DNA of 15,990 nucleotides, from positions 1 to 15,990 of the forward strand of contig JAMCQY010000367.1 of the NCBI GenBank assembly GCA_023381945.1, in the 5' to 3' direction. How positions within the stretch are numbered: the first letter of the stretch is position 1; each line of letters opens with the position of its first letter. A model generated the notes under the pieces. The model was not told the origin of the DNA. It saw only the letters and a list, made by a program, of their open reading frames with translations, and made no database searches. A program made the position numbers and the translations under genes. Positions 1 through 15,990 of this stretch are shown here, one piece after another. Source of the DNA: Deltaproteobacteria bacterium. GTDB taxonomy: Bacteria > Desulfobacterota > Desulfobaccia > Desulfobaccales > 0-14-0-80-60-11.

Positions 1-537
1 CTGGCCGCCGCCCTGCGGCTCTATTTCACCCAGGCGGGCAAACAGGTCCAGGTGGATGAAACCAGCCTCACCCGCCAGTGCGAAAAGGAATACCTGGCCC
101 AGCTCAGCGACCGCATGGACGGCTACGACGCCGCGGTCTCCTTGGCCTGCGGCTGCGGCATCCAGTACCTGGCGGAGATGTACAACAACAAGCTCGTCTT
201 CCCCGGGGTGGACACCTGTTTTATGGGGGTCAACGAGGAGCGGGGCCTTTATTCAGAACGCTGCCAGGCCTGCGGCCGCTGCATCTTGGCCGAGACCGGC
301 GGCATCTGCCCCATCGCCCGCTGCTCCAAACGCATGCTTAACGGCCCCTGCGGCGGCTCCGACAAGGGCAAGTGCGAGGTCAACCCGGAAATTCCCTGCG
401 GCTGGGAGCTGATTTATGAGCGCCTCAAGACCCTGGGGCAACTGGACCGCTTTGAAAGGCCGGTGGTGCCCAAAGACTGGACCAGTTCCCGAGATGGCGG
501 ACCCCGCAAGATTGTCAGAGAGGACTTACGGATATGA
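1..537 (+). CDS. metV: MetV-like methylenetetrahydrofolate reductase C-terminal-domain protein (5' end outside window)
   Basis: The reading frame is open from base 1, so the start lies upstream; 178 residues are visible. A GTG at 52 is only an internal valine codon. The protein is cysteine-rich, with the segments A-C-G-C-G-I-Q, P-G-V-D-T-C-F, E-R-C-Q-A-C-G-R-C-I, G-I-C-P-I-A-R-C, N-G-P-C-G-G and I-P-C-G-W. These are typical of the MetV family, a zinc and iron-sulfur partner of MetF. In acetogens MetV and MetF form the core of the reductase that makes methyl-H4folate in the methyl branch of the Wood-Ljungdahl pathway, in the cytoplasm. The stop overlaps the metF start as ATGA (534-537), which indicates translational coupling. 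From family size I estimate that a few dozen N-terminal residues are missing. The family call is confident; the physiological direction, acetate synthesis or C1 oxidation, cannot be read from the sequence. Confidence 0.88.
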   Translation: MAAALRLYFTQAGKQVQVDETSLTRQCEKEYLAQLSDRMDGYDAAVSLACGCGIQYLAEMYNNKLVFPGVDTCFMGVNEERGLYSERCQACGRCILAETGGICPIARCSKRMLNGPCGGSDKGKCEVNPEIPCGWELIYERLKTLGQLDRFERPVVPKDWTSSRDGGPRKIVREDLRI

Positions 538-1463
538 GCGAGACGACTCCCAGCAAACTCCAGAAGATTATCGCCTCCGGTCAGGTGGCCGTCACCTCCG
601 AGGTGGGTCCGCCCCGCAACGCCGACGGCGCGGTGATCGAACACAAGGCCAAGCTGATCAAAGACTACGTGGACGCCATCAACGTTACCGACAACCAGAC
701 TTCGGTGTGCCGCATGTGCTCCCTGGCCTGCTGCATTCGCATCAAGCTCATGGGGCTGGAGCCCATCCTGCAGATGACGACCCGGGACCGCAACCGCATC
801 GCCTTGCAAAGCGATATCCTGGGGGCGGCAAGCTTCGGAATCAATAATATCCTCTGCCTGACCGGCGACCACCAGCACTTCGGCGATCACGCCACCTGCG
901 CCAACGTCTTCGATCTGGACTCGACGCAACTGGCCATGGCGGTGATGATGATGCGGGACGAAGGCAAGCTGCTGGGCGGCTATGAATTTCAAGTAAAACC
1001 CCAGATGTTCATCGGCGCCGCAGTCAACCCCTTCGCCGGCCCCAATGTCTTCATGCGGGTGGTCCGCATGGGCAAGAAGGCCGCGGCGGGGGTGCAATTT
1101 GTCCAGACCCAGTGCATCTATAACCTGGACAAATTCAAGGAGTTCATGAAGATCGCCACGGATAAGGGCCTGACGGAAAAAGTGGCCGTCCTGGCGGGCA
1201 TCACCCCCATGAAAAACGTGGGCATGGCCAAGTATATGCAAAAACGGGTGCCAGGCATTGATGTTCCCGATGAGATCGTCAAACGCATCGGCGGCGTGCC
1301 CAAGGAGAAGCAGGCGGCGGAAGGCATCAACCTGGCCGTCGAGCAGATCCAGGAACTCAAGAGCGTCCCGGGAGTCAAGGGCTTCCACCTTATGGCCATC
1401 GAATGGGAGGAGAAGGTCCCGGAAATCGTGGAGCAGGCTGGTCTGTATCCCCGGCCGCAATAG
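534..1463 (+). CDS. metF: 5,10-methylenetetrahydrofolate reductase, MetF type
   Basis: This is a complete 309-residue TIM-barrel flavoprotein, the normal length for bacterial MetF. It interconverts methylene-H4folate and methyl-H4folate. The N-terminal T-S-E-V-G-P-P holds the expected catalytic glutamate (E23), L-T-G-D-H-Q holds the conserved folate-contacting aspartate (D112), and R-D-R-N-R-I-A is the usual barrel segment. The start is fixed by the ATGA overlap with metV. Pairing with MetV, instead of a fused NAD(P)H domain, suggests electrons come through a partner complex, as in acetogenic MetVF. One oddity is four cysteines at residues 59, 62, 66 and 67 (C-R-M-C-S-L-A-C-C), where MetF proteins I know carry mostly serine and alanine. 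The gene is followed by a palindromic stretch and the next transcription unit. Confidence 0.93.
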   Translation: MSETTPSKLQKIIASGQVAVTSEVGPPRNADGAVIEHKAKLIKDYVDAINVTDNQTSVCRMCSLACCIRIKLMGLEPILQMTTRDRNRIALQSDILGAASFGINNILCLTGDHQHFGDHATCANVFDLDSTQLAMAVMMMRDEGKLLGGYEFQVKPQMFIGAAVNPFAGPNVFMRVVRMGKKAAAGVQFVQTQCIYNLDKFKEFMKIATDKGLTEKVAVLAGITPMKNVGMAKYMQKRVPGIDVPDEIVKRIGGVPKEKQAAEGINLAVEQIQELKSVPGVKGFHLMAIEWEEKVPEIVEQAGLYPRPQ

Positions 1464-12696: not shown

Positions 12697-13143
12697 TTAT
12701 GCCGCCTGCTTTTTCAGCCACTCGGCCCGGGTTTCCGGTTTAGCCGGGCTGGGACCCAGCTTCAAGGCCCGCTCCACCATCTCCTTGGCGATGGCGGCGA
12801 AGCGCGGCCCTTCCGAAGACGACAGGTTAAACATCTCGATCCGCTCGGGCTCCAGCCCCATGGCCTCGAAGTCCTTCTTCACTTTATTAACGCGTTTCCG
12901 GGCCCTGAGGTTGCCCTTCAGGTAGTGGCATTCGCCCTCCAGGCAGCCGGCCACGAAGACTGCGTCCGCCCCGGCCTCGAAGGCCTTGAGCAGGTGGAGG
13001 ATATCCACCCGCCCGGTGCAGGGCATCATGATCACCTTGATATCCGGGGGATATTGCAGCCGCATCGAACCTGCCAGGTCCGCAGCGCTGTATGCTCAGT
13101 AACGGCAGCAAAAACCGATGATCTTGGGAGCAAATTCAGTCAT
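12697..13143 (-). CDS. mvhD: MvhD/FlpD-like hydrogenase iron-sulfur subunit, predicted selenoprotein (TGA at codon 16 read as Sec)
   Basis: Read from the ATG at 13143, the product has 148 residues with one in-frame TGA at codon 16 (13098-13096). The N-terminus reads K-I-I-G-F-C-C-R-Y-U-A-Y-S-A-A-D-L-A-G, the family's C-C-x-x-C motif with U at the third cysteine. It continues with M-P-C-T-G-R-V-D, F-V-A-G-C-L-E-G-E-C-H-Y and S-S-S-E-G-P-R-F. The family (PF02662 type) carries a [2Fe-2S] cluster and passes electrons between hydrogenase or dehydrogenase partners and HdrA. The 13143 start has AGGAGA at 13156-13151 with a seven-base spacer, 17 bases after the hdrA stop. The alternative ATG at 13065 has only a weak ribosome binding site and would lose the conserved N-terminus. 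A SECIS-like hairpin follows the TGA. If Sec were not inserted the gene would be broken, but clean conservation on both sides argues against decay. Confidence 0.85.
13059..13086 (-). promoter_or_regulatory. Predicted bacterial SECIS hairpin
   Basis: Downstream of the TGA, GGACCU (13081-13076) pairs with AGGUUC (13072-13067) as six base pairs with one G-U. The loop is GGC (13075-13073). A lower stem GCUGC/GCGGC (13086-13082 with 13063-13059) adds five pairs across a three-base bulge. The apical loop begins 20 nt after the TGA and has G at its first two positions, as expected for SelB-dependent SECIS elements. Confidence 0.7.
13096..13098 (-). other. In-frame TGA, predicted selenocysteine codon of mvhD
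   Basis: The codon lies between TAC (Y15) and GCA (A17) and aligns with the third cysteine of the F-C-C-x-x-C-x-Y motif. It is the only stop in an otherwise open 149-codon frame. TGA to TGC or TGT is one base change, as in Cys/Sec homolog pairs. Confidence 0.82.
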
Positions 13144-13150
13144 GACATCC

Positions 13151-13156
13151 TCTCCT
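13151..13156 (-). promoter_or_regulatory. Ribosome binding site deciding the mvhD start
   Basis: On the minus strand AGGAGA (13156-13151) lies seven bases before the ATG at 13143, in the short gap after the hdrA stop at 13161-13163. It supports translation through the TGA and not initiation at 13065. Confidence 0.8.
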
Positions 13157-13160
13157 TTCT

Positions 13161-15990
13161 TTAACCAGCGGCCAGGGCCGTTTCCTGGGCGATGACCTGG
13201 GCGTCGGTGAAGTTTTTCAAAGTAATGGCCTTAGCCGGGCATTCAGACGGGCAGATGCCGCAGCCCTGGCATTTGGCCGGGTCGATATAGGCCGCATCCA
13301 CGGTGTAGTCGATGACCGGCACGTTGAACGGGCAGGTGCGCACGCAGGTGAGGCAGACGGCGCACTTGTCCTGATCGACCACGGCGACGATGCCGCCCAC
13401 TTCGACCTTGTCTTTGGACAGGAAGGTGGCGGCCCGGCCTGCCGCGGCCTTGGCCTGGGCGATGGACTCATCGATGGGTTTCGGGTAGTGGGTCAGCCCG
13501 GCCAGGAAGATGCCGTCGGTGGGCAGGTCCACCGGCCGCAGCTTGGCATGGGCCTCGTTCAGGAAGCCTTCGGCGTTTCTGGGCACCTTGAAGATCTCGC
13601 CCAGCTCATCCACCGGGTTGGGCAGGATGGCGCTGGCCAGGGTGAGCAGGTCGGGGTGCAGGACCACCGGCATCTGCAGGATCGGGTCGAAGACCGTGAG
13701 CTTCAGGCCGTCGCCGTCCTTCTCCACCACCGGTTTGGAATCCAGGTCGTAGCGAATGAAGATCACGCCCAATTCCCGGGCCTCTTTGTAGAGCAATTCC
13801 CGTTCGCCGTAGGTGCGCAGATCGCGATACAGCACGAAGACGTCCATATCCTTGTTGTGGCGCTTCAGGTCGATGGCGCTTTCCACCGAGTGGGTGCAGC
13901 ACAGGCGGCTGCAGTAAGGCCGCTGCGGCTCCCGGGAACCGACGCATTGGATGAAGACCGCCTGTTTGGCGGCATCGATCCGCGGGTCCTTGTCGGCGTA
14001 GACCTTGTCGAACTCCAGCGAGGTGAAGATATTGGGGTGCTGGCCGTAGAGGTACTCTTCCGGCTTATAGGGCTGGCCGCCGGTGCACATGACGGTGACG
14101 CCGTGATCCAGGGAGCGCTCGCCGTCCGGCGTCTTGACCGTGGTGTTGTAATTGCCGATGAAGCCGCCGGTGTCGGTGACCTCGGAGTTAAACAGGATTT
14201 CGATCTGCGGATGGCTCTCGATCTTCTTGATCAGGCCTTCCAGGTAGCCCCGGTAGTCATAGCCCCGGGCGCTGGTCACCAGGTTCCAGGCATTGCCGCC
14301 CAGCTTGTTGCTCTTCTCCACCAGGGTGACCTGAAAGCCCTGATCCGCGATGGAACGGGCTGCTTCCATGCCGGCCACGCCGCCGCCGATGACCAGAGCG
14401 TTCTTGAACACCGGGAAGGCTTGCTTGTGCAGCGGTTCCAACTGCACCACCCGGGCCACCGCGCCCCGCACCAGGTCCTTGGCCTTGGCCAGGGCCTTTT
14501 CGGGCTCGTGCATATGCACCCAGGAGTCCTGGTCCCGGATGTTGGCCATATCGAAGAGGTAGGGGTTGAGACCCACCTGCTGGATGGTTTCCTGGAACAT
14601 CGACATATGAGTCCGGGGCGAGCAGGAAGCCACCACCACCCGGTTCAGCTTGTGCTCCTTGATGGCGTTCAGGATCTTCTCCTGCGTATCAGCCGAACAG
14701 GTGAACAGGTTCTGATCCGCCAGGACCACGCCGGGCAGGGTCGCGGCGTACTCAGTCAGGGCCGGGACATTGATGACCCCGCCGATGTTGATGCCGCAAT
14801 TGCAGATGAAGACGCCCACCCTGGGGGCCTGGCCGGCCACGTCGATCTCCGGCGGCAGTTCCCGCACCTTGAGCTGAGTCCCCCTGGCCGAAGCGAGGAT
14901 TTCGCCCGCCGCGGCCGCGGCCGCGGAGGCCTCCATCACCGACTGGGGAATGTCCTTGGGCGCCTGGAAGACGCCGCAGGCAAAGACGCCCTCCTTATTG
15001 GTGTTCACCGGGGTGAAGGGCGAAGTATTGGCAAACCGGGTGTTAGGCTTGACTTCGATGCCCATGGTCTTGGCCAGGGTCAGGGCGTCCTGGGAGGACT
15101 CCAGCCCCACCGACAACACCACCATGTCAAACTCTTCGATCTTCAGCTCGCCGTTCTCCGCCAGATAGCGGATGGCCAGGCTGCCGGTGCCGGGCACCTC
15201 GTCGATGGTGTGCACCCGGGAGCGGAGGAACCGCACCCCGTGCTCGTCCCGAGCCCGCCAATAGTATTTCTCGAAGTCCTTCCCATGGGTCCGCATGTCC
15301 ATGAAAAAGATGGCGGTGTCCAGGGTGTATTCCTTGCAGTGCTCCTTGGCGATAACCGCCTGCTTGATGGCGTACATGCAGCACACCGCCGAGCAGTAGC
15401 TGTTGTCGCAGTGGTGCAGGTCCCGGGAGCCCACGCATTGCAGCCAGGCGATCTTCTTGGGCTCCTTATGGTCGCCGGGCCGGATCAGGTGACCGGCGTA
15501 AGGTCCGGAGGCGGAGAGAATGCGCTCGAACTCCAGCGAAGTGACCACATTGGGGAACAGGGAATAATGATAGGCCGAATATTTGGTCGGGTCGTAAACC
15601 GAGAAACCCGGGGCCAGGACCACGGCGCCCACATCCAGCGTGAAGGTTTCCGGACCCATGTCGTGGGCCACGGCCCTGGCCTGGCAGGAGATGGCGCACT
15701 GCATGCATTCGGAGCACACCCCGCAGTTGATGCAGCGGGCCGCCTCGGCCACGGCCTCTTCTTCGCTGTAGCCCAAGTTGATTTCTTTGAAGCTGTCGAT
15801 CCACTCTTCCACCGGGGTGGTCCGCATCAAGGCCCGGTGCTTCTTTTCGATGTCGGCCCGGATGGGCGACCACTTGCCTTCTTCTTTGGGTTTGGGCCGG
15901 ATCGGCATCTGGCGGCCGGCCAGCAAATCCTGCCCCTGGAGGTAGCGGTCAATGGAGATGGCGGCCTCGCGGCCCGCGGCCACCGCGGCG
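13161..15990 (-). CDS. hdrA: HdrA-like FAD/polyferredoxin protein with duplicated modules (5' end outside window)
   Basis: The frame is open to the right edge, so the start is missing; GTG 15983 is probably an internal valine. Residues here count from that codon (940 aa to the stop). The visible N-terminus (V-A-A-G-R-E-A-A-I-S-I-D-R-Y-L) resembles the end of a GltD-like flavoprotein domain. A cysteine cluster follows (C84, C87, C90, C93, C96, C100), then an HdrA-type module with C-V-G-S-R-D and Y-C-S-A-V-C-C-M-Y-A-I-K. A second HdrA module follows: F-I-C-N-C-G at 392-397, FAD-binding V-I-G-G-G-V-A-G-M-E at 531-540, and C-V-G-S-R-E with C-S-R-L-C-C. It ends in a two-cluster ferredoxin (C874/877/880/884 and C905/908/911/915). 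HdrA proteins carry the bifurcating or confurcating FAD of heterodisulfide-reductase-type complexes. MvhD directly downstream is the usual electron-entry partner. Confidence 0.9.
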   Translation of the reverse strand, partial: AAVAAGREAAISIDRYLQGQDLLAGRQMPIRPKPKEEGKWSPIRADIEKKHRALMRTTPVEEWIDSFKEINLGYSEEEAVAEAARCINCGVCSECMQCAISCQARAVAHDMGPETFTLDVGAVVLAPGFSVYDPTKYSAYHYSLFPNVVTSLEFERILSASGPYAGHLIRPGDHKEPKKIAWLQCVGSRDLHHCDNSYCSAVCCMYAIKQAVIAKEHCKEYTLDTAIFFMDMRTHGKDFEKYYWRARDEHGVRFLRSRVHTIDEVPGTGSLAIRYLAENGELKIEEFDMVVLSVGLESSQDALTLAKTMGIEVKPNTRFANTSPFTPVNTNKEGVFACGVFQAPKDIPQSVMEASAAAAAAGEILASARGTQLKVRELPPEIDVAGQAPRVGVFICNCGINIGGVINVPALTEYAATLPGVVLADQNLFTCSADTQEKILNAIKEHKLNRVVVASCSPRTHMSMFQETIQQVGLNPYLFDMANIRDQDSWVHMHEPEKALAKAKDLVRGAVARVVQLEPLHKQAFPVFKNALVIGGGVAGMEAARSIADQGFQVTLVEKSNKLGGNAWNLVTSARGYDYRGYLEGLIKKIESHPQIEILFNSEVTDTGGFIGNYNTTVKTPDGERSLDHGVTVMCTGGQPYKPEEYLYGQHPNIFTSLEFDKVYADKDPRIDAAKQAVFIQCVGSREPQRPYCSRLCCTHSVESAIDLKRHNKDMDVFVLYRDLRTYGERELLYKEARELGVIFIRYDLDSKPVVEKDGDGLKLTVFDPILQMPVVLHPDLLTLASAILPNPVDELGEIFKVPRNAEGFLNEAHAKLRPVDLPTDGIFLAGLTHYPKPIDESIAQAKAAAGRAATFLSKDKVEVGGIVAVVDQDKCAVCLTCVRTCPFNVPVIDYTVDAAYIDPAKCQGCGICPSECPAKAITLKNFTDAQVIAQETALAAG

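Follow-up and report, generated by a model that had tools for sequence, protein, structure and literature searches.

The locus at 12697..13143 (minus strand) of the window, which is the whole stretch of 15,990 nucleotides analysed, raises the question of whether an in-frame TGA terminates a reading frame or encodes selenocysteine (Sec). The ORF list obtained with translation table 11 contains a shortened ORF of 122 amino acids at 12697..13065 (minus strand), which starts at ATG 13065 and is the expected product of automatic annotation. Upstream of this ATG, the frame is open through the TGA up to ATG 13143, with the translation MTEFAPKIIGFCCRY-U-AYSAADLAGSM..., and defines an mvhD gene (FlpD/FrhD/VhuD family) of 148 codons in which the TGA (13096..13098, minus strand) is codon 16. 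The 122-residue version is exactly 26 residues shorter than the full frame. A ribosome-binding site, AGGAGAGG (13149..13156, minus strand, read from 13156 to 13149), is located within the gap of 17 nt separating the hdr stop codon from the mvhD start, and AGGAGG is found at the equivalent spot in the three nearest loci, L001-L003. The original prediction had restored the frame from ATG 13065 to ATG 13143 with exact coordinates, and the ribosome-binding site and the 26 residues that automatic annotation would cost were both as it had described them.

The read-through product matched PF02662 from end to end (profile positions 1-123 of 123, 163.3 bits for a cut-off of 22.3). It also matched the fold of the solved MvhD chains and contains all of the conserved Cys13, 42, 67 and 72. 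The score against the NCBIfam model NF045873 (VhuD) was 155.1 bits, below the curated cut-off of 215, and the window MvhD is, judging from these profiles, a relative of VhuD and not VhuD proper.

The family was represented by 80 loci (the best 80 of 127 confirmed) and 42 loci from the genomes of relatives, TGA being read through everywhere; removal of 6 rows with identical DNA from a total of 130 left 124 distinct members, window included. The minimum reading-frame piece searched was 80 residues for the first-round loci and 70 residues for the 124-member set. The loci were drawn with peptide words of the window protein, so that the frequencies of Sec at position 16 (U16) and position 67 (U67) in this set are not population frequencies: column 16 contained Cys in 90 members, TGA in 17, S, A, T or D in 15 and a gap in 2. 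The exchange of C and U at codon 16 among homologues, proposed earlier as a check, was thus found in 90 and 17 of the 124 members, respectively. The 16,462 aligned codons contained 53 TGAs, every one of them on a Cys column (17 at position 16, 35 at position 67 and one at position 72). The single TGA at column 72 (L050:3172-3534) occurs in one copy whose N-terminal part could not be aligned with the family; a faulty assembly or gene decay could account for it, and it was set aside as doubtful.

The same appearance might be produced by a sequencing error, the true codon being TGC or TGT, or by a dead gene in which TGA is a real stop. TGA is one base away from either of these codons, and the window is a single assembly of uncertain quality. 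However, the nearest loci among the best 80 of 127 (L001-L003, 80-82% identity), which come from three other assemblies, all kept the frame and the TGA at codon 16. Between the window and these three loci, codons 3-15 showed 3-4 synonymous and 2-3 non-synonymous changes, indicating that the region 5′ of the TGA evolves as protein. The restriction of all the sampled TGAs to Cys columns speaks against error or decay in the same way. Since the PF02662 match covers the full length, the TGA is kept in L001-L003 and the 53 TGAs all fall on Cys columns, the read-through frame goes beyond what chance would give.

The sequence following the TGA provided a further argument. The window reads GCATACAGCGCTG-CGGACCTGGCAGGTTCG 3′ of the TGA, and CGGACCTGGCAGGTTCG (13066..13082, minus strand) folds as a hairpin with a 7-bp stem and G in the apical loop; the GGC loop starts 21 nt past the TGA, and the element overlaps codons 21-26. 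A core of 15 nt, GGACCTGGCAGGTTC, was identical in 12 of the 17 TGA16 genes and in none of the 90 Cys16 genes, a distribution that a sequencing error or a decayed gene would hardly explain; with all of this evidence, either origin of the TGA is very improbable. The five TGA16 genes devoid of the core are the four Asgard copies and the bacterial L115. A TGA16 gene of the same kind as in the window occurs in the named species Desulfocarbo indianensis (L006). ADLAG is encoded, with a variety of codons, in 63 of the 90 Cys16 genes as well, so that the protein constraint does not account for the identity of the core. Over the ten codons past the TGA, L001, L002 and L003 differed from the window by 1, 0 and 0 synonymous changes, respectively, for 32, 37 and 34 in the next 114 codons. 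A shorter core of 12 nt was present in 12/17 TGA16 genes and 1/90 Cys16 genes. The sole Cys16 gene concerned, L028:6001-6396 from a Planctomycetota MAG, possibly carries a remnant of a Sec-to-Cys change, or the match may be due to chance.

Folding energies did not separate the two classes of genes at site 16. The minimum free energy of the 48 nt after this site averaged −13.96 in U16 and −14.66 in C16 genes (p 0.76), and hairpins of −3 kcal/mol or better were detected in 13/17 TGA16 and 67/90 Cys16 genes (p 0.52). The 41-nt stretch of the window gave a z value of −0.56 relative to shuffled sequences, 53 of 200 shuffles being equally good, and an Rfam search of the window returned no match at the gathering level. 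Since fold energy is uninformative at this site, the case rests on nucleotide conservation, and on that basis the 15-nt block and hairpin after TGA16 are assigned as a bacterial SECIS element. At site 67, the same hairpin scan (−3 kcal/mol or better) retained 31/35 TGA67 genes vs 15/89 Cys67 genes (p 3e-9), and the 48-nt energy did not separate TGA67 from Cys67 genes (p 0.46). Most of the Sec genes have their own hairpin: its best loop lies at +21 in 14 of the 17 site-16 genes, two of which are Asgard genes with a weak hairpin, and at +24 in 28 of the 35 site-67 genes.

We considered also that the functional product might be the 122-aa protein initiated at ATG 13065, the upstream codons forming an untranslated leader. 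This ATG is present, and among the best 120 of 7931 protein homologues (P0002-P0121), 49 are annotated from the corresponding internal residue, Met27. However, the other 71, which are full length and are all those that reach column 16, start at residue 1 and have Cys16. The short form would lack Cys13, which is invariant in a 79-sequence alignment, together with the strand and the helix that open the modelled fold, and AGGAGAGG precedes ATG 13143. Internal initiation as the source of the functional protein is thus extremely improbable, and the 49 homologues starting at Met27 are most likely shortened selenoproteins resulting from an annotation artefact.

Insertion of Sec requires a dedicated machinery, which was searched for in the genomes of relatives. 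SelB passed the cut-off in 15 of 18 of these genomes, including all nine with a TGA16 gene (a 240-residue piece only in G003); two of the 14 control genomes also passed. The relatives below the cut-off were G010 and G013, reached via Cys loci, and G016, reached via the TGA67 locus L013; G016, which contains this TGA67 gene, has a SelB piece of 87 residues that does not attain the cut-off. tRNA-Sec was over the cut-off in 13/18 relatives' genomes, including 7/9 TGA16 genomes (G004 and G005 being below it), and 5 of the 14 control genomes also passed. Twelve of the 13 passing genomes had best tRNA-Sec scores of 68-77 bits, while G013 was borderline with 47.3 for a cut-off of 47. In the six genomes G001-G006, relatives of L001-L006, SelA was over the cut-off in five (as a piece in G001), none being found in G005, and SelD in all six (as a piece in G005). 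Each of the six SelD matches has one in-frame TGA, and SelD is probably itself a selenoprotein in these genomes. The same six genomes contain 66 PF02662 matches in total, 17 of them with one internal TGA. Two TGA-less MvhD genes lie head to tail in L100 (G001) and L101 (G003), with 488 bases between match starts. Sec insertion in the window organism would depend on a machinery that we infer from these relatives. UGA is reassigned in some bacteria, but the chance that it encodes another amino acid here is very small, because the upstream hdr gene of L001 and L003 terminates in TGA 14 nt ahead of the mvhD start, TGA is confined to Cys columns in the MvhD family, and the Sec machinery is found in relatives.

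The Sec at codon 16 put forward in the original prediction is therefore supported by the Cys/Sec exchange in the family, by the hairpin core shared by 12 of the 17 TGA16 genes but by none of the Cys16 genes, and by the Sec machinery in most relatives tested. We conclude with very high confidence that the locus is a genuine bacterial selenoprotein gene, encoding a 148-residue MvhD with Sec at UGA codon 16. The hidden selenoprotein is thus confirmed, and automatic annotation truncates the gene of the window at its N-terminus.

The position of Sec relative to the cluster was then considered. The alignment of 79 sequences (A1) shows no variation at Cys13, 42, 67 and 72 but does at residue 16, and across the 124 members these four cysteines are constant save for Sec replacements and gaps. 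These four residues would hold the [2Fe-2S] cluster. Because column 16 varies while the four others do not, residue 16 is probably a nearby replaceable Cys and not an obligatory ligand. The TGA had been placed initially at the third cysteine of the cluster-binding motif: it does occupy the third cysteine, but the presence of S, A, T or D at this column in 15 of 124 members makes an obligatory ligand improbable. In the available parts of PMC12350162, PMC6085437 and PMC6019823, the cluster ligand residues are unnamed.

Of the 46 bacterial Sec genes in the sample, window included, 13 use position 16 alone and 32 use position 67 alone; the remaining one is the doubtful position-72 case, and no gene has Sec at both 16 and 67, whereas both positions are Sec in three of the four Asgard Sec copies. 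In each of the Asgard loci L065, L067, L068 and L077, the Sec copy is accompanied, at a distance of about 3 kb, by an MvhD copy with Cys only. A tree was built from 132 columns, without the Sec columns, and 122 rows, 2 of the 124 members being of insufficient length. Because support was low for 35 of its 119 inner branches, which are drawn open, and long branches were flagged, only the minimum of forced changes and the near neighbours of the window were read from it. On this tree, U16 needed 7 changes, at least 4 of them forced by well-supported branches, and U67 needed 10, at least 5 of them so forced. Together, the four U16 genes of the window's group, four Cys genes and the doubtful U72 gene make up a supported set of nine; two U67 genes lie just outside this set, with weaker support. 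Related MvhD proteins thus change the Sec site on the tree. A tentative reading, which we hold to be somewhat less than an even chance, is that the Sec position is interchangeable in bacterial MvhD, one Sec being placed at either 16 or 67 under selection for one selenium in the cluster pocket and not for a fixed atom, whether at a probable ligand (67) or at a probable non-ligand (16). No description of a switch between 16 and 67 was found in the literature searched, of which full texts or supplements may hold one. The existence of this small protein, whose fold is known, in Cys-only, Sec16 and Sec67 versions offers a natural set for studying the role of selenium beside [2Fe-2S] in flavin-based electron bifurcation, and raises the question of why selenium shifts from one cysteine to another within the same cluster pocket.

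The gene preceding mvhD (13161..15990, minus strand) has its 5′ end beyond the window edge. It had been taken for a plain HdrA; its homology to the 1485-aa protein of L003 shows instead that its 942 residues are the C-terminal portion of an HdrL-type protein (HdrA with a GltD-like part), with 81% identity over 915 aligned positions in the C-terminal part of the L003 protein. The latter combines HdrA-type parts with a Fer4_20/pyridine-nucleotide module, that is, a GltD-like module fused to HdrA, and the window partner holds only the end of this part, with an NF009410 match at its start. From this match, we take the module to be GltD-like. At the other end of the window (1-1463, plus strand), about 11 kb from mvhD and on the opposite strand, are metV-like (PF12225) and metF (PF02219) methylene-THF reductase genes; MetVF is described as a partner of HdrABC-MvhD in Moorella-type systems in the parts of the literature available.

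The following mechanism explains these data best. The ribosome would start at ATG 13143, and the hairpin, 14-30 nt past the UGA, would recruit SelB and Sec-tRNA for the insertion of Sec at codon 16, yielding the 148-residue MvhD. With its [2Fe-2S] cluster, MvhD would move electrons between a donor module and an HdrA-type flavin; such a cluster and electron transfer to the HdrA flavin are stated for MvhD homologues in the source passages available. Since the upstream partner is of the HdrL type, with a fused GltD-like part for NAD(P)H binding, the likely electron route would connect NAD(P)H, HdrL and MvhD, and would feed or drain the bifurcating flavin. Sec16 would lie beside the cluster, in a CxxU pair with Cys13, and may serve as a selenol of the second sphere, tuning the cluster or relaying electrons; it would not be an essential ligand.

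Sec-containing MvhD/FrhD/VhuD proteins are not new, and the accessible parts of the literature catalogue them in delta-proteobacteria since 2006. FrhD (= MvhD) was listed in that year as a bacterial selenoprotein family in which Sec has been converted to Cys and Cys to Sec (PMC1794560), and 131 FrhD selenoproteins from 53 bacteria were counted in 2016 (PMC5029168). Sec forms, noted in the original prediction for Vhu/Frh/Mvh-type subunits, are published for delta-proteobacterial MvhD/FrhD (PMC1794560, PMC2702500, PMC5109826). As in the window, a PF02662-type subunit carries a Sec codon in four mvhD genes of Desulfobacterium autotrophicum (mvhD1, 2, 3 and 5; PMC2702500), in one mvhD of Desulfococcus multivorans (PMC5109826) and in eight FrhD of Syntrophobacter fumaroxidans (PMC1794560). 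A 2026 review describes, in the text available, a CxxU motif, a representative with two Sec and multiple Sec in some archaeal copies (PMC13188914); CxxU corresponds to C13-R-Y-U16 in the window MvhD. VhuD of Methanococcales belongs to the same family and has a Sec isoform, a known selenoprotein in M. maripaludis according to the source parts available. The Asgard FrhD of L065, L067, L068 and L077 share U16 with the window, but the two Sec of three of these four copies contrast with the single one of the window MvhD, and the Asgard SECIS is described, in the available text, in the 3′ untranslated region, whereas the hairpin of the window is within the coding region, right after the TGA. The MvhD-type chains of 5odc, 7bkb and 8rvu have Cys at position 16, unlike the Sec16 of the window, and belong to Mvh-, Fdh- or Elp-Hdr complexes, whereas the neighbour in the window is of the HdrL type. 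The design of the partner is the one named HdrL in D. autotrophicum, where, from the accessible text, Sec mvhD adjoins hdrA/hdrL genes and HdrL, a heterodisulfide reductase/glutamate synthase fusion, is followed by mvhD as in the window (PMC2702500). HdrL1 and HdrL3 of this organism are themselves Sec proteins (PMC2702500), whereas no in-frame TGA was found in the L003 HdrL (1485 codons) or in the 942 residues of the window partner.
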